From a virus: a stretch of DNA of 49,566 bases. This document shows positions 1-49,566 of the stretch, one piece after another (position 1 is the first letter of the stretch; every line of letters starts with the position of its first letter). Position numbers and translations under genes: made by a program. The stretch is from the IMG/VR virus record IMGVR_UViG_3300020156_000209, positions 1 through 49,566 of that record. One strand, given 5' to 3'. The notes beneath the pieces are model-generated. The model was not told where the DNA came from. It ran no database searches and saw only the letters and a list, made by a program, of their open reading frames with translations.

Positions 1-101
1 AGCACCTAAACCAAAGGACCCGACCTGCAGTACCGAACCCGACGTTTTATCTTCCAGAGAGCCGGGCTGCAGGTTCTTTAATGCAGATGTTCCTAAACCG
101 A
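1..101. repeat. Inverted repeat IR-A, left copy
   Basis: These 101 bases are the exact reverse complement of 47212-47312. The match ends inside the crossover dinucleotide of the DNA-invertase site, so the repeat is the shared first part of two alternative fibre cassettes. Confidence 0.95.
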
Positions 102-576
102 GGTTTGCGCGAGCATCTTCGTCCGTCGTTGCGCCGGTCCCACCATCAGCAATTGCCAGCGCGCCATTGGCCCCTTTCTGCAGAAATTTACCAATCGCCG
201 GGATAGTCATGCTCACGCCGTTGATGGTGACTGTGACATTCTGGTTGGCGTTCGTAGTGGCAAACGCCTCCCAGGCCCCGATATTTCCGTCATATTCTTT
301 AATAAGCTGAGAAATACTCTGCGCCAGCCCGTCAACAGAAAGACTATCGGTGACAAGAATGCCGTACTTCTGAGAAGTTACCGGCGGTGATGCAGTAGGT
401 GTAACGGTCAGGGATGTGGCGCTGTTGATTGCCGTTATCTGTACGAGCTGGACCGGGTTGGATGCAATCAACAAAGTCTGGCCAATACGGATTTGGCTGG
501 CTGGCGCAGCGAAGTTCGTCCCTGTGCCGGTGATCGTATTGCCGCTGAATGAAATTGTTCCGGTATTATAAATCAT
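1..576 (-). CDS. Tail fibre, constant N-terminal part (runs off left edge)
   Basis: The start codon at 576 follows a good ribosome site (AGGAAGG). The 192 codons visible stay open to the window edge. The product begins MIYNTGTISFSGNTITGTGT, ends the constant part with the tail-fibre motif GGTGATTDEDARANLGLG, then enters the variable part. A recombination crossover site sits at the NLGLG codons. From this site on, the coding sequence (1-101) is identical to the start of a silent cassette at 47212-47312 on the other strand. It is therefore the expressed anchor half of an invertible fibre gene, and the DNA beyond the left edge supplies its receptor-binding C-terminus. It lies downstream of the tail-tip genes, as lambda stf does. 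The fibre role is inferred from motifs and position; the phage receptor is unknown. Confidence 0.85.
   Translation of the reverse strand, partial: MIYNTGTISFSGNTITGTGTNFAAPASQIRIGQTLLIASNPVQLVQITAINSATSLTVTPTASPPVTSQKYGILVTDSLSVDGLAQSISQLIKEYDGNIGAWEAFATTNANQNVTVTINGVSMTIPAIGKFLQKGANGALAIADGGTGATTDEDARANLGLGTSALKNLQPGSLEDKTSGSVLQVGSFGLGA
88..113. other. Invertase crossover site 1 (gix/cix-like)
   Basis: The core AAACCGAGGTTT is centred on the GA dinucleotide at 100-101. It closely resembles the core of gix and cix sites used by the Mu and P1 invertases. It lies in frame within the expressed fibre gene. Sites 2, 3 and 4 share the half-site GGTTTAGG; the other half differs. Extent (26 bp) is taken from the known family, not measured. 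Confidence 0.75.
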
Positions 577-21295: not shown

Positions 21296-21664
21296 TCAAA
21301 GTGCTATGAAACCATTACCCTGATCGCCTTCCGGCACGGCATGTATCAGCGCTTCTTCATCAGGCTGACTTGCCGCAGCTTCGCGCGCAGACTTCCCGGC
21401 ATGGCACTCTACGCAGAGCGTCCACAGATTACGTTCTGAGTTGTCACCACCGAACTGAAGCGCGATGCGGTGATCCAGCTCACTCTCGTGCAGGTCAACA
21501 GCACGTGAACACATGCAGCATCGTCCGCTATCACGCACCCAGATTCGACGCTTGAGGCCGACACGGGCACTTCCGCTGATGCGTCGTTGCTCACCGTATA
21601 CAGGCTTGATGCGGCAGGTATCGATGACCTTCAGCCTCGGCTTTAACGTGGTCAGCTTAGCCAT
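21296..21664 (-). CDS. HNH endonuclease
   Basis: A 122-residue HNH nuclease with two zinc Cys pairs (CCMC and CVEC) and the HNH residues in ESELDHRIALQFGGDN and NLWTLCVECHAGK. The start at 21664 follows GGAGG at a good distance. In HK97-type phages such a nuclease is encoded beside the terminase and assists cos cleavage and packaging. Confidence 0.9.
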   Translation of the reverse strand: MAKLTTLKPRLKVIDTCRIKPVYGEQRRISGSARVGLKRRIWVRDSGRCCMCSRAVDLHESELDHRIALQFGGDNSERNLWTLCVECHAGKSAREAAASQPDEEALIHAVPEGDQGNGFIAL

Positions 21665-22247
21665 GTAACCTCCATGCACGCCTGCGCTCGTGGCGCGGCT
21701 GGCGGTCAGGGTGCTTCTCTACCGGATCACCATCAGCATGATCCACCAGCGAGAAGCACGGATAAATCACCGGGCCACCGCAGGCATCGCCCACAGCATA
21801 ATCAGCAGGCTTACCCGCGTCCCAGCGCGCGAGGATCTTTGGAATAAGCTTGGGGGGTACGCTGTAGCACACAGCGTGCACCAGGCGCTGCATAGTGATG
21901 TGCTCGGCCCTGTCCCGATCGGCAGTGATAAGCTTCGTTGCTATCTCTAGTTGATACTGCGGCGGCCGGCCGGTACCGAGATAAAAGCTCAGCATGTCGT
22001 CAGGGAAACGGGCCAGCCAATCGAGCACCTTTTCGGTGAAGCCATGCACCAGAAGCGCATCGTCTTCCAGCACCACTACACGGCAAGGTTGTTTTGCTGC
22101 CCACTCAATCGCGCGACGGTGATTCCAGTTCGCACCGTGGTTACCGTCATCAATCAGCAGATGTGCGCCAGTACTCAATGCCAGCGCCTCAGCCTGTTGC
22201 CGCCTGGCATGATGGCCGACCACCACAAACGTTATGTCTTTAGTCAC
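21657..22247 (-). CDS. Glycosyltransferase family 25-like protein
   Basis: A 196-residue protein with a Rossmann-like start (ITFVVVGHHARRQQAEALA), the acidic motif VVLEDDALL and a C-terminal basic tail (KHPDRQPRHERRRAWR). The EDDA motif and overall plan resemble LPS/GT25-type transferases. It overlaps the HNH start by eight bases. With the second transferase upstream it suggests glycosylation of a virion protein or of host surface sugars; the target is unknown. Confidence 0.7.
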   Translation of the reverse strand: MTKDITFVVVGHHARRQQAEALALSTGAHLLIDDGNHGANWNHRRAIEWAAKQPCRVVVLEDDALLVHGFTEKVLDWLARFPDDMLSFYLGTGRPPQYQLEIATKLITADRDRAEHITMQRLVHAVCYSVPPKLIPKILARWDAGKPADYAVGDACGGPVIYPCFSLVDHADGDPVEKHPDRQPRHERRRAWRLHG

Positions 22248-22262
22248 CAGAAAACCTCCATT

Positions 22263-22285
22263 AAAAAAAGCCGCACAATGGCGGC
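22263..22285 (-). terminator. Intrinsic terminator between broken gene and glycosyltransferase
   Basis: On the minus strand GCCGC-CATTGT-GCGGC is followed by seven T. Confidence 0.8.
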
Positions 22286-22308
22286 TTCGTACTATCTAAT
22301 AACGAGGT

Positions 22309-22719
22309 CTATCTGCGTGAACTGATGAAAGTTGGTATGGTGTCACCTAATTCAGAGGCATCTAAAAACTCACCTTCAAGTTCAGGGACTTTAATTATTC
22401 TTCCGCCTGTTTCGGTTTCATAGTGAAACGGGACCGTTACTTCTTTCCCATCGATCACAACTAACATGGTTTCTTGATTTTGTCTCTTGAGGACACGCCG
22501 AATGTAATCTTTAAAAGCACCAAGTCTCGCATCGTCGGATAGTTGAAGTAAGTTCTGACGAACGTGCCAGTCTTTTCCATCAGGTAAAATGAAATCCCAC
22601 TGAATCTCGCCATTGCCTATCAAACGGACAACTTACCTGGAAAAAAGGCTTTCGTCCTCTCCTCCTAATGGAGCCATGGCCAGAACTTCATTTTCATGGG
22701 TGAATTCTTGCGGCTTCAT
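22309..22719 (-). pseudogene. Hypothetical protein gene with in-frame TAA
   Basis: From the ATG at 22719 (with GAGG upstream) the frame reads MKPQEFTHENEVLAMAPLGG... for 28 codons to a TAA at 22635-22633. The same frame then continues VVRLIGNGEIQWDFILPDGK for over 100 codons to 22309. A TTG at 22623 could restart translation, but has no clear ribosome site. The simplest reading is a ~136-residue protein interrupted by a nonsense mutation. Its C-terminal half (VVIDGKEVTVPFHYETETGG) is acidic and soluble. No family recognised. Confidence 0.6.
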
Positions 22720-22820
22720 CACAACCTCGTCTTAATTGTTCGTCACGTTATGAGTGGCAGGCGGTGACGATGCCGCTTTTCGGGAGCTACCCTAGCCACT
22801 TACATTATGCCATGCCCTCG

Positions 22821-24278
22821 CTATTTATGGCGAAACCATGCAACCTCCTTGCCGAAGCCATCCGTCTTAAAGATGGTGTGTACCTTAGGGCCGGTAACGA
22901 TGCGATCACCGAATGACTTTGCAGCCATACCGAAAGCGCACATATCCACCAGCGTGGTGGGTGCTGTCTCCATCTTCCAGAAGCGGTGGCTTTCAATCAG
23001 GTAATACTGCCTGATGATCCGGTGGGCAAACTCCATCACATCTTCACGGCTACCACCCAACAGGCCAGCGTTAAGCAGCGGATCATCCCGGTGCTGTTCG
23101 AGGAAATCGCTATAGGCTTTGCCGTGGTGATTGGTCGTCATCCATTGGTCGGCATACGTCTTATGCTCCGATCCGATGTAAATTTTCCCCGGTTCCATTT
23201 CTGCCCAGGGTTCCCGAAGCATCTCAACGTCAGTACCATCAGTGCACCAGACCCGGCGGTATTCAGGGTGAGCGCGCAAATGCTGGTAGATGTGCAGCCA
23301 GCGCGCGAAGTAGGGACTCATCTGAATAGGTGGAACCTGATTCAGGGTTGCACCTTCCGGTGGCGTGGTCAGCTCGTCTGCCAGCACCACAGCTTTTGCG
23401 CCACGAATAGAGCGGGCCCACACCTGCAATAATGTCGGGTCGGCGACCATTTTAACTTTTCGCTGTGGATCGGTCTCACTTGTCAGCAGCGAGGTTATCA
23501 CCACATCATGCTGCTGCCGGTACGGGGCATAGGCTGTATACCCACTATCCCGGCGAGCGCTGTATATTAAGGCGTTGGCCCTTGCCAGGCTCTCACGTTC
23601 AGGCCGTGGAATTGAACGGGTCACCTCTTCATACTCGTCCATCGAGTGAATCAGCTTTTCTGAGCCAGCCACATCCGCGAACGCCCAGGTCGTTAACCCG
23701 GCATTGTGAATACGCAGGGCCAGATCCGGGTGCTCGTACATACCGCGACCGTAAACCTGATCGAATCCACCTACCTTCTCGATGGCACTGCGATGGTAAT
23801 ACAGCATCACGCCGCGCTGTCCCGTGTAAGCGATGTGCTTATCATCACGGTACAGCACCGCCATATCGTTCAGCTTGCGTGGGCCAGCGAGATCAAGAAA
23901 CTGGTAAGCCAGGTGTGGTTCAGGTGATTCGATGTAAGGCAGATGCCAGTTATCGGCAACAGGCCAGGCATCATCGTCCCACAGGAAAAGATGCTCGCAC
24001 CCGGCATCCATCAGCGCGGTTAAGCTGGCGTTCTTCGAGGCAACAATACCGAAGGATGTTTCATGTCGAAGCAGCTGCACGCACTCAGGCCCTACCGCTG
24101 CTGGTTTCGATCCATCATCAATAACCACCACCAGCGCGCCGGCGGGCAGATGCTTCATGTGCTGCTCAAGTGCTCGTTTCAGAACATCAGCGCGGTTATG
24201 CGTAGTTATGGCAATACCGATCCGTGAAGAAGTCACGCCAGCTGGTAGATAAGGTATGCCGTTGATAAAGACTTCCAT
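22821..24278 (-). CDS. Two-domain glycosyltransferase (GT-A, family 2-like)
   Basis: A 485-residue protein. The first half is a GT-A fold transferase: RIGIAITTHNRADVLKRALE, VVVIDDGS, then the metal-binding motif LFLWDDDAWP, and GGFDQVYGRGMYEHPDLALR as the acceptor region. The second half (about 250-485) contains WCTDGTDVEML and LNAGLLGGSREDVMEF, like a second transferase-related domain. The ribosome site GAGGGG precedes the ATG. Likely partners the GT25-like gene downstream. Its target could be a phage structural protein or host surface; not shown by the sequence. Confidence 0.8.
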   Translation of the reverse strand: MEVFINGIPYLPAGVTSSRIGIAITTHNRADVLKRALEQHMKHLPAGALVVVIDDGSKPAAVGPECVQLLRHETSFGIVASKNASLTALMDAGCEHLFLWDDDAWPVADNWHLPYIESPEPHLAYQFLDLAGPRKLNDMAVLYRDDKHIAYTGQRGVMLYYHRSAIEKVGGFDQVYGRGMYEHPDLALRIHNAGLTTWAFADVAGSEKLIHSMDEYEEVTRSIPRPERESLARANALIYSARRDSGYTAYAPYRQQHDVVITSLLTSETDPQRKVKMVADPTLLQVWARSIRGAKAVVLADELTTPPEGATLNQVPPIQMSPYFARWLHIYQHLRAHPEYRRVWCTDGTDVEMLREPWAEMEPGKIYIGSEHKTYADQWMTTNHHGKAYSDFLEQHRDDPLLNAGLLGGSREDVMEFAHRIIRQYYLIESHRFWKMETAPTTLVDMCAFGMAAKSFGDRIVTGPKVHTIFKTDGFGKEVAWFRHK

Positions 24279-24287
24279 GAAAGCCCC

Positions 24288-25052
24288 TCAGCGACCGCCG
24301 CGATTATTCCAGATCAATCCGCCGGGTTGCAGTGCGTTCCGGATGGCAGCTGTGGCAGCGTCATTGATGGCCGTCTGCAAGGTGACCAGGGTCGAACCGT
24401 TGGCGTCCAGCCAGGTCTGAAACCCCTTAACCAGATCGCGTTCACGCACTGCATCGAGAATCGCTTCAACCATTTCATTTGAAAGACGGGTTTTACTGGA
24501 CCGACTTTTATCATCCTCAACACCGATCCGCATGCCTGCAGCGTATTGCTGGCCGTTAACATCGGTAGTGATCTGAATATTGTTGGCAGAATTGATAGTG
24601 CCAGGCTGAATGAACGATCCGTTGATAAAGCTTTCACCTACCGAAATTTTGATCGCATCGCTGTTGCGGATCTGTTTATCAATCTCCTCAAGAGCGGTCC
24701 GTGCGTCACCTGTAACTAATGCAACCTTCATGGTAGAAGTTACGTGATCGGCTTGCTTCGCTTGCTCATCCTTTGAGGAGGGATTTTCAAAGCTCCCCAA
24801 ACGAAAGCGCACAGATCCGTCAGCATCACGTACGGTAATGGCCTCTCTGGTCATTTCCATGCTGCCTTGTTTGCGGCGCTTATCCTTGACGCGAAGATGT
24901 CCGGGGAAATATTCGGGATAACCGTTTACTTTGGTACGGCGGCCTCTCAGGTCATACTCAGCTGAACCCGCCGGGCTTTTGATGATCATGCCGCCATCGG
25001 TCTGAACGATGCGCATACCGAGCATCGCCTGCTGCAGCGATAAACGTTTCAT
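24288..25052 (-). CDS. Free-standing J C-terminal-like (DUF1983-type) protein
   Basis: A 254-residue protein located before the terminase, far from the tail genes. Residues ~130-190 repeat the C-terminal signature of this phage's own J: ITTDVNGQQYAAGMRIGVED here against VAVDANGRQYAAGMGIGVEN in J, and ESFINGSFIQPGTI here against RETFIQDGTI in J. The N-terminal part (MIIKSPAGSAEYDLRGRR) is beta-rich and different. It may be a virion tip or capsid-attached accessory protein built from the same module. It ends ten bases before the glycosyltransferase, so they are co-transcribed. Confidence 0.75.
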   Translation of the reverse strand: MKRLSLQQAMLGMRIVQTDGGMIIKSPAGSAEYDLRGRRTKVNGYPEYFPGHLRVKDKRRKQGSMEMTREAITVRDADGSVRFRLGSFENPSSKDEQAKQADHVTSTMKVALVTGDARTALEEIDKQIRNSDAIKISVGESFINGSFIQPGTINSANNIQITTDVNGQQYAAGMRIGVEDDKSRSSKTRLSNEMVEAILDAVRERDLVKGFQTWLDANGSTLVTLQTAINDAATAAIRNALQPGGLIWNNRGGR

Positions 25053-25390: not shown

Positions 25391-25942
25391 ATGATTCATA
25401 CTGTCCATTTTTTATGCCCTGTCAATCCGAGTACAGTTAGCATCCTTCAAAGTCACATGCTGTCCGCTATCTCACAAGGTGCGACCCAAATCAATTTACA
25501 CATTTCCAGTTCTGGTGGGGATGTGACCTCTGGGTTTACAGCCTACAACTTTATAAAAACCCTACCCATTCCGGTACATTGCTTCAACATCAGTAATATT
25601 GATTCGATTGCTAACGCGATATTCTTGGCGGGAACACATCGCTTTGCAAATCATGGGGCTCGATTCTTATTACATCCATTCCAGTGGAATTTTGGAGGAA
25701 TGCAAAGCGTTGACCATGAGCGTATGCGCGAGTGGGTATCTAGTTTAGACCACGATCTCGATCGCCTCGTTTCCCTTTTCAACGAAGAAACTGCTACCTC
25801 CAGTGAACTGACTGATTGGAGAGAATTGATCAGAACGTCCACTATTCTCAATCCTGAAAGAGCTTCCGCCCTCGGACTTATCGAAGGAATTCAAGAGGCT
25901 AGCATCGCTGAACCCAATGCTACCTGGTGGATTAATTGTTGA
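25391..25942 (+). CDS. ClpP-like serine protease (moron, antisense to late operon)
   Basis: A 183-residue protein of the ClpP/SppA superfamily. Visible landmarks are the oxyanion-region motif ISSSGGDVTSG (about 38-48), the nucleophile segment NIDSIANAIFLAG with Ser72 in the ClpP Ser position, and RFLLHPF with His95 in the ClpP His position. The third catalytic residue (Asp in ClpP before the SxxEAxxxGLID motif) is not obvious; here the segment is STILNPERASALGLIEG. No ATPase partner is nearby. It is a single plus-strand gene inside the minus-strand late operon, bracketed by terminators: a moron layout. A role in host or phage protein turnover is conjecture. Confidence 0.8.
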   Translation: MIHTVHFLCPVNPSTVSILQSHMLSAISQGATQINLHISSSGGDVTSGFTAYNFIKTLPIPVHCFNISNIDSIANAIFLAGTHRFANHGARFLLHPFQWNFGGMQSVDHERMREWVSSLDHDLDRLVSLFNEETATSSELTDWRELIRTSTILNPERASALGLIEGIQEASIAEPNATWWINC

Positions 25943-32887: not shown

Positions 32888-33208
32888 TCACTGAGCACCT
32901 CCCTGATCAAGAATAAAGGTTCGTGCTTGCTCCATAGCGTGCTCATCCCCATTCACCAGCGAGCGCAGCAGTGATATAGCCTCATCCTCTGCGCTCTGGC
33001 TGTTAATTGAGATGCCCCGGCTTACGCCCGGCACCAGGGTGATCGCACCTTTGCGCTGAAGCGCACGTAGCAGTTCGGTCGCCGCGTTCGGAGACGCCGC
33101 GCCCATCAGGTCGGCAACTTCTTTTTGCGTTGGTGGGATACCGTGCTCTTTCTGGAAAGCCACGATCAGGGATAAAACTTCTTGTTGGCGGGCGGTCAGA
33201 TTTTTCAC
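32888..33208 (-). CDS. LexA-type DNA-binding domain without protease
   Basis: A 106-residue protein. Residues 1-68 closely follow the LexA winged-helix domain: KNLTARQQEVLSLIVAFQKE here and KALTARQQEVFDLI in LexA, ASPNAATELLRAL here and RSPNAAEEHLKAL in LexA, and GVSRGISI for GASRGIRL. Ser, Asn and Ala of the LexA recognition helix are kept; one of the two Glu is changed to Thr. The rest is a short helical tail (NSQSAEDEAISLLRSL), not the peptidase. GTG start overlaps the methylase stop (GTGA). It may bind LexA-like boxes but cannot self-cleave. Confidence 0.85.
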   Translation of the reverse strand: MKNLTARQQEVLSLIVAFQKEHGIPPTQKEVADLMGAASPNAATELLRALQRKGAITLVPGVSRGISINSQSAEDEAISLLRSLVNGDEHAMEQARTFILDQGGAQ

Positions 33209-34428
33209 GCTGCATCCTCCTTCAGGGAGGCTTTGCTGCTGAAATCCTTCAGCGTGACCCGAATAGTGCGAATGTTGCAGCGCGCCGCGGGATCCATTTC
33301 TTTGATGACATCCATAAATGTCGGGATCGCCATGCCATATTCTTTCATCGCTTCCATACCTGCGATATTCAGCCGTTCCTGCATATCGACTTTTCCCTGG
33401 TCATTCTCTGGGTAATTTATATCCAGCCATTCGCTGACAGCCAGCTGCAAACTTTTCTCAGCGATCAGAACTTCCGCCACAGCAATGTCACCTGCGCTTA
33501 CCATGACAACGGTCGGCTCGGAAACATTGTCGGGAGCCCATACGTGAGCAAATTTTGACTCTTTGAAGGTGTACTCTTCCTTGTCGCCGAACACCGCCCG
33601 GACACAGGCCCATGCTTTGATACCGCTCTTCGCAAGAATATCTGCCTGACTCAGCGGCAGGATTTCTTCAGAACTGGTTACCGGTGCTGGCAGCGCAACT
33701 TCATCGGCCATATCCAGCGCTGATACGCTTTCGGCAGCCTCATCGCCTGCGACAGGAATCACTTCCGGAATATTTTGTTGCTGCATCTGGGGTAACAGGC
33801 GCAGCGCTTCGCGGCGGATCTGCGCGATAAATGCATCGCCGCGTGCTTCCAGATCCTTACGCTCTATATAGCTGATCGCCGGGCCGCGCCAGGTTTTGTC
33901 GAATACAGCAATCGCGCCTGCGAAGAACGCTCCTGACGGAACCTGTTTCACATCTTTCGGAATGAACCACTTCGGCAGATCAAAACCAATTCGCCCGCGG
34001 ATAAACGATATGTGATCGGCATCCTCCGGCCACCACACTTCGCTGGTGGCTGCCTTGATGAGAAATACATACCGCCCGCCTTTATCGCGCATCGTGCTGG
34101 CGTGTTGCATGATGTATCGCATCCCGGTGATGTATTCACCGTCATGCTGAGATGCACGGCTGTACGGCGGGTTGCCATAGGCCGCGCCATGGAGTTCTTC
34201 GAGCCGGGCGGACCAGTCCTGCGCCAGAGCATTGTCTTCGGCAGTATAGAAATCAGGGCACTTTGAGTTTTCACCGTCGGTAAACAGATCAAGTACCAGC
34301 GGCCCAAACATGGCGTTGATGCCCCAGAAGATATTTTCAGGTGTGCGCCATTGATCGCCGACTTCTTTCAGTTCGTGAACAGGCTTACTGCGTAATTCTA
34401 TGAGTGCCTGGCAATATTTATTATGCAT
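33205..34428 (-). CDS. Phage N6-adenine DNA methyltransferase (Dam-like) with C-terminal extension
   Basis: A 407-residue protein. Residues ~20-190 are a phage Dam-type methylase: DQWRTPENIFWGINAMFGPLV and the catalytic-type motif GNPPYSRASQ. The remaining ~200 residues (from about 210) are an extension with no clear domain. It might protect DNA from restriction or mark phage DNA. It is coupled to neighbours at both ends (TAATG with the PerC-like gene, GTGA with the LexA-like gene). Confidence 0.85.
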   Translation of the reverse strand: MHNKYCQALIELRSKPVHELKEVGDQWRTPENIFWGINAMFGPLVLDLFTDGENSKCPDFYTAEDNALAQDWSARLEELHGAAYGNPPYSRASQHDGEYITGMRYIMQHASTMRDKGGRYVFLIKAATSEVWWPEDADHISFIRGRIGFDLPKWFIPKDVKQVPSGAFFAGAIAVFDKTWRGPAISYIERKDLEARGDAFIAQIRREALRLLPQMQQQNIPEVIPVAGDEAAESVSALDMADEVALPAPVTSSEEILPLSQADILAKSGIKAWACVRAVFGDKEEYTFKESKFAHVWAPDNVSEPTVVMVSAGDIAVAEVLIAEKSLQLAVSEWLDINYPENDQGKVDMQERLNIAGMEAMKEYGMAIPTFMDVIKEMDPAARCNIRTIRVTLKDFSSKASLKEDAA

Positions 34429-44709: not shown

Positions 44710-45978
44710 TTAGTGCGCCCTGACGATCGGCAAATCTGACCACCTCGTCGTATAGCATGGAGACAGCATTTCTCTCTTCATCTGCCATGCTGGCTGGACG
44801 CCCTGTCCGGCAAAATAGAGCGTGCCCCTGCCCTGTTTGTTGAGCCGGTCCATCAGCGTCATCAGCGCGTCGCTGTCGGCCCGCGGCGAGTTGTCATCAA
44901 ACAGATTGAGCTGCGCCACGCCCTGGCTGAAAAAATCGCCCAGCATGATCCCCGCTTTCTGGTACCGGTGGCCATCGCGCCATATGGCATCCAAACAGCG
45001 CGTGGCCGCCGCGATAATGTCACGGGTGTCCTGTGTCGGTGTCAGCAGTTTCGTGCCAACGTTGTTGCCGTAGTAAGGCTCGTTCAGCGCAAAGGGCGAT
45101 GTTTTCACGAATGCGGAAATATACCGGCAGTACTGGCGTTCACTGCGCAGCTTTTCCGCTGCCCGGGCCGCATAAGAACAAATTGCCTGGCGCATTTCTT
45201 CGTACCCGGTGATCCGTTCGCCAAACGATCGGGAGCAGACAATTTCCTGCTTCGCCGGTGCAAATTCTTCCAGTTCCAGACAAGACTCGCCGCGGAGCTC
45301 GCGCACCGTTCGTTCGAGCACGACGTTGAAGTGTTTCCTGATGAACCGAATATCCGTGTCCGCCAGCTGGAGCGCTTTGCTGATCCCCATTGCCTCGAGC
45401 TTTTTGGCTATCCGCCTGCCGACGCCCCACACTTCCTCGACCGGCATCAGCGCCATTAAACGGCGCTGGCGCTCAACGTTCGATAAATCGACCACGCCCC
45501 CGGTCTGGGGATACTCTTTCGCGGCCCGGTTAGCCAGCTTGGCCAGCGTCTTCGTCTGGGCGATCCCGACGCCGCAGCGCAGGCGTGTGTTGCGCCAGAC
45601 GGTATCTCGGATCTCACGTCCAAAATCGCCCAGGTCACGACAATTGCGCACGCCGGTCAGATCACAAAAGGCCTCATCGATTGAGTAAACCTCCACGCGC
45701 GGGCATATTTCTTCGAGAGTGGTCATCACGCGCTGCGACATATCGCCATAGAGCTCGTAATTACTCGAGAACGCGAGCAACGGCTGCGGGAAAGGCGTCT
45801 CGCGCAGCTGGAACCACGGCGTGCCCATTTTTATGCCGAGCTTTTTAGCTTCGGCGGATCGGGCAATGACACAGCCGTCATTGTTGCTCAGTACCACGAT
45901 CGGCCGCCCGGCCAGATCGGGGCGAAATGCAGTTTCGCAACTCGCATAAAACGAGTTCATATCAACGAGGGCGAACAT
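44710..45978 (-). CDS. umuC: DNA polymerase V catalytic subunit UmuC
   Basis: A 422-residue Y-family polymerase, the same length as E. coli UmuC. The start MFALVDMNSFYASCETAFRP and catalytic SIDEAFCDLTG motif are intact. It overlaps umuD by 17 bases and shares its LexA-controlled promoter. A phage-borne pol V raises mutagenic repair in the lysogen during SOS. Confidence 0.95.
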   Translation of the reverse strand: MFALVDMNSFYASCETAFRPDLAGRPIVVLSNNDGCVIARSAEAKKLGIKMGTPWFQLRETPFPQPLLAFSSNYELYGDMSQRVMTTLEEICPRVEVYSIDEAFCDLTGVRNCRDLGDFGREIRDTVWRNTRLRCGVGIAQTKTLAKLANRAAKEYPQTGGVVDLSNVERQRRLMALMPVEEVWGVGRRIAKKLEAMGISKALQLADTDIRFIRKHFNVVLERTVRELRGESCLELEEFAPAKQEIVCSRSFGERITGYEEMRQAICSYAARAAEKLRSERQYCRYISAFVKTSPFALNEPYYGNNVGTKLLTPTQDTRDIIAAATRCLDAIWRDGHRYQKAGIMLGDFFSQGVAQLNLFDDNSPRADSDALMTLMDRLNKQGRGTLYFAGQGVQPAWQMKREMLSPCYTTRWSDLPIVRAH

Positions 45979-46399
45979 TGCGGTGCATCGTGTTGATGAC
46001 AGAAATGACAACGCCGGCGATGTCTAACCCGTCGGCGTCATAAATTGGGATCGGAGGGTATGCTGGATTCTCAGCCAGCAGTTGAGGCACCGGGTGCGTC
46101 ACCAGTCTTTTGACGGTGAATTCACCTCCAAGATTGGCAACGACAATATCGTTATGCTGGGGAGTAAGGCTGAAGTCCACGAGAAGGAATGAGCCGTCGA
46201 GAATACCGGCGCCGATCATGGAATCACCTGACACGCGCAGGGTATATGTCGAAGACGGATGGGGAATAAGATGCGACACCAGATCGATGCCGCTCTCGAT
46301 ATAATCAGCGGCAGGGCTGGGGAAGCCTGCAGAAACGAGATCCCCGTAAATGGGGATCTGTACCGGAACGTCCGGAAAAATAAGGCGTTGTAGTTGCAT
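45962..46399 (-). CDS. umuD: Pol V accessory protein UmuD
   Basis: A 145-residue S24 protein. Self-cleavage site Ala24-Gly25 (LVSAGFPSP), Ser60 (SGDSM) and Lys97 (FTVKRL) fall at the E. coli UmuD positions. Confidence 0.95.
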   Translation of the reverse strand: MQLQRLIFPDVPVQIPIYGDLVSAGFPSPAADYIESGIDLVSHLIPHPSSTYTLRVSGDSMIGAGILDGSFLLVDFSLTPQHNDIVVANLGGEFTVKRLVTHPVPQLLAENPAYPPIPIYDADGLDIAGVVISVINTMHRNVRPR

Positions 46400-46576: not shown

Positions 46577-47134
46577 TTACACCTGTTTAGAGGCAGGGAA
46601 TTTCTTATACAGAGTACACACGGCAACATCATAGATAATCGCGACCTGCTTTCTGTTCACGCCGTTTTCTATAAGCCTACCCACCTGCGCCCATTGATCT
46701 GCTGATAATTTCGGGCGGCGTCCCCCTATTCGCCCTTTTGCGCGAGCCGCTGCCAGCCCAGCACGGGTTCGCTCAACGATAAGTTCCCTTTCCATTTCTG
46801 CCAGGGCAGACATGATGTGAAATATAAATCGTCCCATCGGGCTGGACGTGTCTATGCTGTCGGTGAGGCTACGGAAATGAACCCCTCTTTGTCGGAGTTC
46901 GTCCACCAACAAAACCAGATTTCGCATGCTGCGTCCCAGGCGATCCAATTTCCAGACCACCAGTGTATCGCCCTCTTGTAATGCCCGAAGCAACCTTTTA
47001 AGCGCTGGCCGATTAGCAACGGTACCGCTCATTTTGTCTTCGAATATCTGCTCACATCCTGCGCGTTCGAGCGCCTGCCGCTGGAGATCGGTGTTTTGGT
47101 CATTTGTTGATACCCTGACGTAGCCAATTTGCAT
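46577..47134 (-). CDS. DNA invertase, Gin/Cin type serine recombinase
   Basis: A 185-residue small serine recombinase very close to Mu Gin: MQIGYVRVSTNDQNTDLQRQ with catalytic Ser9, VVWKLDRLGRSM, SLTDSIDTSSPMGRF, GRIGGRRPKL and a C-terminal helix-turn-helix (NRKQVAIIYDVAVCTLYKKF). It adjoins the fibre cassettes, transcribed away from them. Family members need the host Fis protein and an enhancer, often inside the 5' end of the invertase gene; I cannot confirm one here. Confidence 0.95.
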   Translation of the reverse strand: MQIGYVRVSTNDQNTDLQRQALERAGCEQIFEDKMSGTVANRPALKRLLRALQEGDTLVVWKLDRLGRSMRNLVLLVDELRQRGVHFRSLTDSIDTSSPMGRFIFHIMSALAEMERELIVERTRAGLAAARAKGRIGGRRPKLSADQWAQVGRLIENGVNRKQVAIIYDVAVCTLYKKFPASKQV

Positions 47135-47199: not shown

Positions 47200-47225
47200 T
47201 TATATAAAACGTCGGTTTAGGAACA
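47200..47225. other. Invertase crossover site 2
   Basis: Core TCGGTTTAGG with the TC dinucleotide at 47212-47213, inverted relative to site 1. It begins cassette 1. Confidence 0.7.
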
Positions 47226-47312
47226 TCTGCATTAAAGAACCTGCAGCCCGGCTCTCTGGAAGATAAAACGTCGGGTTCGGTACTGCAGGTCGGGTCCTTT
47301 GGTTTAGGTGCT
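47212..47312. repeat. Inverted repeat IR-A, right copy
   Basis: Exact reverse complement of window bases 1-101. Confidence 0.95.
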
Positions 47313-48026
47313 GAAGCACCAGCCATTATCGCGAATGATGCTAATCAGGTTACTGCTTATAACGGCTTTGTGTCTGCCGCAGGCGCTAATAGCACGAACT
47401 GGGTTAACGCTTATGGGCCAATGCTTGTCATGAGGCGAATTACAGCCGTAGCGCAGATGCAGGTAACATCAACCGGCGGTCTGGCGTCACGCTACGGAAC
47501 AGCAACGGACATGACGCTGAATAACAACGGTACCTGGTGTGTCCACTGGCATGACAGAAACACTACCATTGATTCGAATGGTTTTATTAAGCGAGCCTCT
47601 CCGATAGTGAAGCTTTTCAACGACGGTAGCAGTGAAGTGAATGATGAATCAGAAGGTTGCTCTGTTTCGCGTGTTGACGTTGGGCAGTATTTGATTAAGG
47701 GCTGTATGGGATTAAATGCTGATGTAGGCTGGGGCGGCATCGATGGCGGATTTGAAATACCGTCGGACCGCAACAAACAGCCGCTGATCTGGCTTGATTA
47801 TGAAGTAAATGCTGACGGTTCAGTCTTGGTTAAAACCTATCACCGAACGTATCCAACAGCTCCAGCATTTGCCAGAAACGAACTGGAAGGTTTCAGTGAC
47901 GGTGATCCGGTTGATATACCTCGTGACCAATTTGTGTCCGTTCGTGTCCAAATGCCTGATGATTCCTTATACAACCAAAAAATACGTGCTGCAGAGATAT
48001 ATCTGCATGTTGACGTTGGCGAATAA
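47214..48026 (+). CDS. Silent tail-fibre cassette 1 (C-terminal part)
   Basis: An open frame of 270 codons with no start of its own and a stop codon just upstream of the crossover site. It begins GLGTSALKNLQPGSLEDKTS, as the expressed fibre does. It continues with a beta-rich fibre body and a C-terminal domain (DVGQYLIKGCMGLN, DIPRDQFVSVRVQMPDDS, HVDVGE end) typical of phage side-fibre tips. Its last 99 bases, including the following crossover core, recur inverted at the right window edge. Inversion would fuse it to the N-terminus at 576. Confidence 0.85.
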   Translation, partial: GLGTSALKNLQPGSLEDKTSGSVLQVGSFGLGAEAPAIIANDANQVTAYNGFVSAAGANSTNWVNAYGPMLVMRRITAVAQMQVTSTGGLASRYGTATDMTLNNNGTWCVHWHDRNTTIDSNGFIKRASPIVKLFNDGSSEVNDESEGCSVSRVDVGQYLIKGCMGLNADVGWGGIDGGFEIPSDRNKQPLIWLDYEVNADGSVLVKTYHRTYPTAPAFARNELEGFSDGDPVDIPRDQFVSVRVQMPDDSLYNQKIRAAEIYLHVDVGE

Positions 48027-48039
48027 AGGTCGGTTTAGG
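47941..48039. repeat. Inverted repeat IR-B, left copy
   Basis: Exact reverse complement of 49468-49566 (99 bases). Codes the C-terminal end VRVQMPDDSLYNQKIRAAEI plus crossover site. Confidence 0.95.
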
Positions 48040-48043
48040 AAGT
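48018..48043. other. Invertase crossover site 3
   Basis: Core GGTCGGTTTAGG with TC at 48030-48031. Ends cassette 1 and begins cassette 2. Confidence 0.7.
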
Positions 48044-48676
48044 GCGGCCATTGAGAACGTTGGGACCTCAGGAGATGCTGTAGCAAAACTCAATGCAGCT
48101 AATACCTGGTCCTCTCCTCAGACGATTTCCAGCGTGTGTTATGTCTATGCCGGTAGTGGAGCGTACGCGCATTTCTGGGCACGTGATCAGGACTTAAATT
48201 CATCTCGAGGACTCCTTTTTTTCGCACCTTCTGATACCGGCCGGGCCAATCTCAGAGCGGATAAAAATAATGAGTCGGGTTACACCTTCACTTTTGACTA
48301 TGGGGGCACTTTCCAGGCGAAAACTGTGTCTCAAACATCTGATGCTGATAAAAAAGATAAAATTACCCCCATCGAAAACGCCCTTGAAAAAATAGATCAA
48401 CTTGATGGTGTCACTTTCTTGTGGGCTGAAAACGGCATGCCTTCCGCTGGTGTGATTGCTCAACAGCTTCTGAACGTATTACCGGAATGTGTTGGTTCTG
48501 TTTTTGATGATCAGGGTGATTTTGATGATGAAGGGCAGTTGGTCCGGGAACCCGATTTGACCAGACGGAGCTACTCTGTTGAATATAGCGGGCCTGTTGC
48601 TCTGTGCATCCAGGCCATAAAGGAGCTCAAAAAGAAGGTCTTGGAGTTGGAACAGAAAGTATCACCAACTGAATAA
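48032..48676 (+). CDS. Silent tail-fibre cassette 2 with S74 chaperone domain
   Basis: A 214-codon frame from the crossover site: GLGSAAIENVGTSGDAVAKL, then a short fibre body, then an endosialidase-type (Peptidase_S74) intramolecular chaperone (ADKKDKITPIENALEKIDQL, GVTFLWAENGMPSAGVIAQQ, YSGPVALCIQAIKELKKKV). Fibres with this domain trimerise, then cut it off. So the alternative fibre would mature in a different way from cassettes 1 and 3. Confidence 0.85.
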   Translation, partial: GLGSAAIENVGTSGDAVAKLNAANTWSSPQTISSVCYVYAGSGAYAHFWARDQDLNSSRGLLFFAPSDTGRANLRADKNNESGYTFTFDYGGTFQAKTVSQTSDADKKDKITPIENALEKIDQLDGVTFLWAENGMPSAGVIAQQLLNVLPECVGSVFDDQGDFDDEGQLVREPDLTRRSYSVEYSGPVALCIQAIKELKKKVLELEQKVSPTE

Positions 48677-48677
48677 G

Positions 48678-49475
48678 TTAGTCTGTTGCTTGTGAGTATT
48701 TGTGAGCCAGATTCCATATACTGTTATCAGGCATGTCGAGGCGAACATCAATCCAGCTGTTTGCTGGAACATCAATCGGCTCACCTTTCATTTTAACCAT
48801 TTCACCCTCATCGCCCAGCATGTATTTACGCTTAAAAAGGCGGATTTCCAGCGCTCCGCTTTCTGCTTTCTCAGCCTCAACAATACCCAGTTCGCCCATG
48901 CCGCCCGGGTCCATCGGCGGCAGAATCTGCCAGCCTTCGGATGCCAGACCAGCCGAACCTGTCAGCTCATAAACACCAACATCGAGACGGCTAATGCTGA
49001 CGCCCTCAGCTTCTGCATTGGCCGTGCCGCTGCCACACCACGTAAAGCCTTGTTCAGCAACATCCGCGCGCTGGCATTTTTCTGCACTGGCGATAATACG
49101 GGCAACCGGGGATGCTGCCTTAAGCGTGCCATCACTGGATTTCGTGGTGTTTGAAGTGCCGTAAAGATTATTGGATTTAAGGGTTATTCCTGATGCTGCT
49201 GTTCCCAGTCCGCCCCAGCATGTAACATTCCCTGTGGCATGATCGACCTGTATAAACGCATGAGTATCACTGGCGTTAGCATAAATACCGCATCTGTATC
49301 GCATAATGCCCCCCGTCTGCTCTGCATTAAATCGATATACCCCACAGCCTGTTTGCGACATAAACCCAAATATTGTCGCATCATTATTTCGCGATGAATC
49401 CAGAATCCCCGGTCCCCACACCATTACGTTTCCTGTCGTGTTGCCCACATCCTTCATGGCCGCACTGCCTAAACC
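48678..49475 (-). CDS. Silent tail-fibre cassette 3 (minus strand)
   Basis: A 265-codon frame from crossover site 4 (GLGSAAMKDVGNTTGNVMVW) to 48678. It has an Ala/Gly-rich body and the same kind of tip domain as cassette 1 (SRLDVGVYELTGSAGLASEG, DVPANSWIDVRLDMPDNSIW). It ends tail-to-tail with cassette 2, one base apart. An internal ATG exists at 49457 but no ribosome site, so it likely needs fusion to the N-terminus. Confidence 0.85.
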   Translation of the reverse strand, partial: GLGSAAMKDVGNTTGNVMVWGPGILDSSRNNDATIFGFMSQTGCGVYRFNAEQTGGIMRYRCGIYANASDTHAFIQVDHATGNVTCWGGLGTAASGITLKSNNLYGTSNTTKSSDGTLKAASPVARIIASAEKCQRADVAEQGFTWCGSGTANAEAEGVSISRLDVGVYELTGSAGLASEGWQILPPMDPGGMGELGIVEAEKAESGALEIRLFKRKYMLGDEGEMVKMKGEPIDVPANSWIDVRLDMPDNSIWNLAHKYSQATD

Positions 49476-49489
49476 GACCTTTATTCGCC
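49464..49489. other. Invertase crossover site 4
   Basis: Core CCTAAACCGACC with GA at 49476-49477, same orientation as site 1. Separates cassette 3 from cassette 4. Confidence 0.7.
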
Positions 49490-49566
49490 AACGTCAACAT
49501 GCAGATATATCTCTGCAGCACGTATTTTTTGGTTGTATAAGGAATCATCAGGCATTTGGACACGAA
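49468..49566. repeat. Inverted repeat IR-B, right copy at window edge
   Basis: Exact reverse complement of 47941-48039; runs to the last base of the window. Confidence 0.95.
49481..49566 (-). CDS. Tail-fibre cassette 4, C-terminal end only
   Basis: The last 27 codons and stop of a minus-strand fibre cassette (RVQMPDDSLYNQKIRAAEIY then HVDVGE). The rest lies beyond the right edge. By gene order it is likely the cassette now joined to the N-terminus at the left edge. Confidence 0.75.
   Translation of the reverse strand, partial: RVQMPDDSLYNQKIRAAEIYLHVDVGE

Follow-up and report, generated by a model that had tools for sequence, protein, structure and literature searches.

A very probable three-cassette tail-fiber shufflon in a lambdoid siphophage, split over both ends of a virus record

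The lambdoid siphophage analyzed here very probably carries a three-cassette tail-fiber shufflon. The window, by which we mean the whole stretch of DNA under study, is the entire IMG/VR record IMGVR_UViG_3300020156_000209 (49,566 bp, class 'linear'), and the invertible locus is split over its two ends: the invertase gene (minus strand) is followed by cassette 1 (plus), cassette 2 (plus), and cassette 3 (minus), and the fiber N terminus lies at the opposite end of the record on the minus strand (Table 1). In the mechanism that we propose, the side tail fiber's N-terminal half ends at a crossover site, and the invertase would flip DNA that lies between two 26-bp sites of opposite orientation, each with a TC overlap, fusing the N terminus in frame to one of cassettes 1, 2, and 3. 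Three sites allow four isomers. Cassette 1 would move as a single block and cassettes 2 and 3 as a tail-to-tail double block, and because of this topology unbiased flipping should lead to usage of cassette 1 at 50%, cassette 2 at 25%, and cassette 3 at 25%. Particles would then be released with different host-binding fiber tips, and one viral population probably displays three host-recognition proteins. An earlier sequence-only reading had proposed a multi-cassette invertible tail-fiber locus in a lambdoid siphophage, a proposal borne out by the anatomy of the locus, by 66 relatives, by inversion isomers among prophages that are nearly identical, and by experiments published for a system with the same layout.

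The gene content is that of a full temperate lambdoid siphophage, with a central tail fiber J, tape measure, terminase, and head protein, together with an O-type replication protein, CII, a CI-type repressor, Q, an integrase, and UmuDC. Both ends of the record (1 to 101 and 49468 to 49566) lie inside cassette 1, and the 'linear' record is therefore probably a complete genome that closes to a circle through this cassette. The closed genome would measure about 49.4 kb with one cassette 1 and about 50.2 kb with two. Several other genes were seen along the way. Glucosyltransferase/glycosyltransferase genes at 21657 to 25052 on the minus strand (phrog_854 and phrog_1579) likely form an O-antigen modification (gtr) module; a protein similar to head maturation/ClpP-type proteases is encoded at 25391 to 25942 on the opposite (plus) strand, outside the head operon; and a protein encoded at 33205 to 34428 (minus) matches phage phosphoadenosine-phosphosulfate-reductase and DNA methyltransferase families. 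The UmuC-like and UmuD-like genes (44710 to 46399, minus) have the integrase on one side and the invertase on the other.

Table 1. Features of the invertible tail-fiber locus, in coordinates of the window
Feature	Position	Strand	Basis or remark
Serine DNA invertase, Gin/Cin type, 185 aa, Ser9	46577..47134	-	Pfam, phrog, and PDB matches
Putative recombinational (Fis) enhancer, first ~30 invertase codons	47045..47134	-	Synonymous conservation; position as in P7 cin
Crossover site, end of fiber N terminus	88..113 (TC at 101)	-	Left arm CGCGCAAACC; score 30.8; relatives with same arm type
Crossover site adjoining invertase	47200..47225 (TC at 47212)	+	Left arm ATATAAAACG; score 30.9
Internal crossover site, cassette 1/cassette 2	48018..48043 (TC at 48030)	+	Left arm CGAATAAAGG; score 35.5
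Crossover site, cassette 3 head, here fused to cassette 1 end	49464..49489 (TC at 49477)	-	Left arm as at the end of cassette 1; score 31.0
Constant N-terminal part, side tail fiber, HK97 stf type	107..576	-	phrog_1591; identity to HK97 stf and mEpX1
Cassette 1, fiber C terminus, Phage_tail_C_2; stop, then crossover site	47214..48026	+	PF25670 3.7e-61; PDB 7z47
Cassette 2, fiber C terminus, Peptidase_S74 (endosialidase-type chaperone)	48032..48676	+	PF13884 3e-13
Cassette 3, fiber C terminus, Phage_tail_C_2	48678..49475	-	PF25670 1.5e-31
Contig-end echo, first 101 nt of cassette 1, fused to N terminus (isomer with N terminus on cassette 1)	1..101	-	Exact inverted copy of 47212-47312
Contig-end echo, last 99 nt of cassette 1 plus its site (counted earlier as a fourth cassette)	49468..49566	-	Exact inverted copy of 47941-48039

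The recombinase adjoining the cassettes is Gin-like, as the earlier reading had it. It contains a Resolvase domain (PF00239, 1.2e-51) and an HTH_7 domain (PF02796, 1.2e-13), matches the phrog_125 DNA invertase at 7e-91, and aligns end to end over residues 1 to 183 with its best PDB match, DNA-invertase 3uj3 (E value of 5.5e-88). Its catalytic serine is S9 within VRVSTNDQ, and the protein is full length with both domains, as in the Gin/Cin/Hin (Din) group; it is presumably active in this phage. The start of the gene appears to be constrained beyond its protein sequence. Across 54 relatives, synonymous-codon identity over codons 1 to 30 is 0.72 to 0.80 against an expected 0.35 to 0.42, with later blocks at 0.40 to 0.64, and the annotated enhancer of P7 cin occupies the same place (gene nucleotides 19 to 86; 78% identical). 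This 5' conservation fits a putative enhancer positioned as in P7 cin. The invertase would presumably depend on Fis; a strict Fis consensus scan of the window invertase gene returned 0 matches.

Four site sequences with a common TC-GGTTTAGG core occur in the record, where about 0.1 would be expected by chance, in agreement with the number of crossover sites reported earlier. We built a position matrix from 80 sites of all the fetched loci, including those of the window itself; at a threshold of 12 it detects these four in the window and no others (scores of 30.8 to 35.5), against 0.1 per shuffled window. Each is a 26-bp imperfect dyad with a central TC between its half sites, giving a 2-bp GA/TC overlap, and the invertase-side site is identical at 18 of 26 positions to the gix sequence. 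Another occurrence of GGTTTAGG, at 47301 (and at 12), was considered as a fifth site and rejected, being without the TC core and scoring under the matrix threshold.

The fiber N terminus is 70% identical to HK97 stf and 74% identical to mEpX1, and the product formed by joining it to cassette 1 matches the phrog_1591 tail fiber family over residues 1 to 421 (E value of 1.9e-161). An expressed N terminus had been placed at 1 to 576; it does meet a site, running from 576 to 107, but positions 1 to 101 are an inverted copy of the start of cassette 1. Cassette 1 also matches PDB entry 7z47, 'Putative tail fiber,' at 1.2e-66. Since cassettes 1 and 3 encode Phage_tail_C_2 and cassette 2 encodes Peptidase_S74, the three tips are truly different. 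As had been noticed from the sequence, the frames open at the sites with GLG(T/S)(S/A) and match the codons of the N terminus: NLGLGTSA in the N terminus, NVGLGTSA in cassette 1, and KVGLGSAA in both cassettes 2 and 3. With these codons in register on both sides of the sites, the frame is open from any join. The locus therefore combines one constant N terminus with three distinct C termini, each opening in frame at a site, as in the shufflons of FRphi and enteropathogenic E. coli (EPEC). A tail-to-tail order had been claimed for the cassettes generally; it holds for cassettes 2 and 3 but not for cassette 1, which is head to tail with cassette 2.

How the record came to end inside cassette 1 bears directly on the number of cassettes. 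Each of the two end copies starts exactly where the neighbors of cassette 1 diverge and is about one k-mer long, which points to a break at cassette 1 in a de Bruijn (short-read) assembly; against this reading, the overlaps measure 99 and 101 nt and so do not share a single k. In the record, either end of cassette 1 is joined to two different partners: the N terminus and the invertase side at one, cassettes 2 and 3 at the other. The likeliest cause of these ends would be a mixture of inversion isomers. Both a mixture and a duplicated cassette 1 fit the four cassette 1 joints, which by themselves do not discriminate, and a genome in which cassette 1 is present twice, as identical but oppositely oriented copies (invertase, cassette 1, cassettes 2 and 3, cassette 1 copy, N terminus), its contig cut inside the second copy, would explain all four joints without calling for unseen ones. 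Loci with four sites are also known among the relatives (L145, L134, and L212). We nevertheless regard two copies as unlikely. We found no distinct relative locus in which a whole cassette is duplicated: the longest repeat of at least 95% identity inside a locus is 84 nt and lies beside a site. For this reason the isomer mixture is favored; its equilibrium model, moreover, predicts as the most frequent joints the same four that the record contains.

The sequence-only reading had counted at least four cassettes, whereas only three are distinct: its fourth is the last ~90 nt of cassette 1, reversed past the site at 49477, and was rejected as a distinct cassette on account of this identity. A system like Min of p15B with four or more different cassettes, as that reading envisaged, could appeal to the occurrence of GGTTTAGG in four site sequences of the record, but with the supposed fourth cassette copying the end of cassette 1 exactly, and with three physical sites behind the four sequences rather than the six of Min, we give it almost no credence. 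There is a more general warning here, as short-read virus contigs that end in such loci can pass for 'linear' and appear to contain extra cassettes that do not exist.

Relatives of the locus were collected by searches with the invertase, the N terminus, and cassette 1, together with E. coli complete genomes. Among 66 nonredundant intervals from N terminus to invertase, 37 have two sites, 23 have three, 3 have four, and 3 have fewer. Three or four sites are thus present in 26 of 66 loci, or ~40% of the family in a sample biased by its queries, and three-way tail-fiber switching appears to be common in lambdoid siphophages of enterobacteria. In every three-site relative one left arm is of the N type (mostly CGCACAAACC), another is of the invertase type (mostly CTATAAAACG), and the third is internal (mostly TGAATAAAGG); the single block corresponding to cassette 1 lies on the invertase side in 13 and on the fiber side in 10. 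The four-site loci contain four cassettes, for which the model gives 12 isomers.

Inversion between oppositely oriented sites is seen in relatives as pairs of isomers whose breakpoints fall within the sites, and in the phage of the window it is indicated indirectly by the contig ends. E. coli strains CX15 and CX04 differ from CX21, CX05, and CX07 by a 2,325-bp inversion (99.87% identity) in an otherwise near-identical locus, and the ends of the inversion have 27 bp in common with the flanks, at the sites; the invertase of this prophage is only 61% identical to that of the window. Segments 400 nt or longer and at least 95% identical are inverted between the members of 21 locus pairs, some of which are the same contig fetched twice. 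One pair (L041 and L165) has an inverted segment 99.7% identical, together with an invertase that is ~90% identical. Because of the inverted segments in the CX strains and in these pairs, the arrangement is, on comparative evidence, an active switch in the family. For the window itself, a decayed locus left as a fixed relic, its invertase inactive or not acting on the sites present, would have parallels in relatives that have lost sites (L052, L187, and L188). Such decay is very improbable here, given a complete invertase that retains Ser9 and its two domains, conservation of its 5' synonymous sites across relatives, cassette frames that are all open and in register, and a cassette 1 joined to two partners per end.

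Comparisons between loci also revealed cassettes more alike than their surroundings. In L019 and L145, two cassettes are 98.3 to 99.2% identical between site boundaries, against 93.6% in the N-terminus flank and 83.5% in the invertase gene region. Between L155 and L219 the entire 2.3-kb segment is inverted; its identity is 99.8%, against 95.5% in the left flank, and the invertases of these two loci differ (61% versus 90% identical to that of the window). In these comparisons and in that of L025 with L145, cassettes are 98 to 99.8% identical and flanks clearly less so, and it is at the crossover sites that identity falls. One tentative idea, which we think somewhat more apt to be wrong than right, is that the crossover sites double as ports through which whole fiber-tip cassettes pass between phages. 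If so, a shared pool of tips, exchanged by the invertase or by homologous recombination, would explain the existence of two-, three-, and four-cassette loci.

The closest published counterpart is FRphi, an Enterobacter siphophage with a three-isoform tail-fiber shufflon and gin, whose isoforms occur at about 50/25/25% (PMC13418256, doi 10.1038/s41564-026-02355-x, 2026). Deletion of gin abolishes this variation, TFP-C2 is the sole isoform that infects the tested host, with FhuA as its receptor, and the authors also report loci with up to six paralogs (PMC13418256). Like the phage of the window, FRphi is a temperate siphophage with one N terminus, three C termini, and an adjacent gin-type recombinase (the fibers being compared by description), and its published ratio is the equilibrium expected for the three-site topology found here. 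The site topology by itself yields the ratio seen in FRphi, and this offers a parameter-free test of unbiased inversion. The phage of the window would presumably switch receptors. FRphi differs in lying by fliCP-tldR, whereas the neighbors here are UmuDC and the integrase, and in having been tested experimentally, through the gin deletion and the FhuA receptor of one isoform. When loci of the FRphi type were sought in four Enterobacter genomes, the N terminus was present and no close invertase was found in the stretch fetched. The shufflon of the P2-like prophage of EPEC E2348/69, in which three inverted repeats allow inversions of two lengths and four variants with three alternative C termini coexist (PMC4272514), resembles the locus of the window in its three sites, four variants, and three C termini of one protein, but the EPEC prophage is a P2-like myophage and not a lambdoid siphophage.

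Among two-cassette loci, the 'Fin' locus of phage LLS (PQ299149.1) has an invertase 92% identical to that of the window, an N terminus of the same family, site arms CGCGCAAACC and CTATAAAACG, and the same gene order beside J-type tail genes, but it carries no more than two cassettes, with IR-L and IR-R marked in the annotation. A literature search on mEpX1 and LLS Fin found no experimental paper. Gin of Mu and Cin of P1 and P7 share the serine invertase family, sites resembling gix, and conservation at the enhancer position, but they are two-way switches of myophages with other fiber genes. The sequence-only reading had likened the locus to Min of p15B; Min is likewise a multi-site serine-invertase tail-fiber system, but the FRphi gin shufflon, the EPEC prophage shufflon, and two-cassette loci such as that of LLS are closer. 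Min, carried by a P1-like plasmid, has six crossover sites and forms up to 240 isomers, against three sites and four isomers here. Pilus shufflons of the R64 type also switch among multiple C-terminal cassettes, through the tyrosine recombinase Rci, and encode a pilus tip; the adjacent recombinase of the window is a serine invertase, and the product is a tail fiber. The locus of the window belongs to an already known kind of system, a very similar three-tip switch having been published in 2026, and to this our analysis adds the derivation of 50:25:25 from topology, the share of ~40% of three- or four-site loci in the query-biased sample, and cassettes that are far more alike than their flanks between phages, with the drop at the sites.
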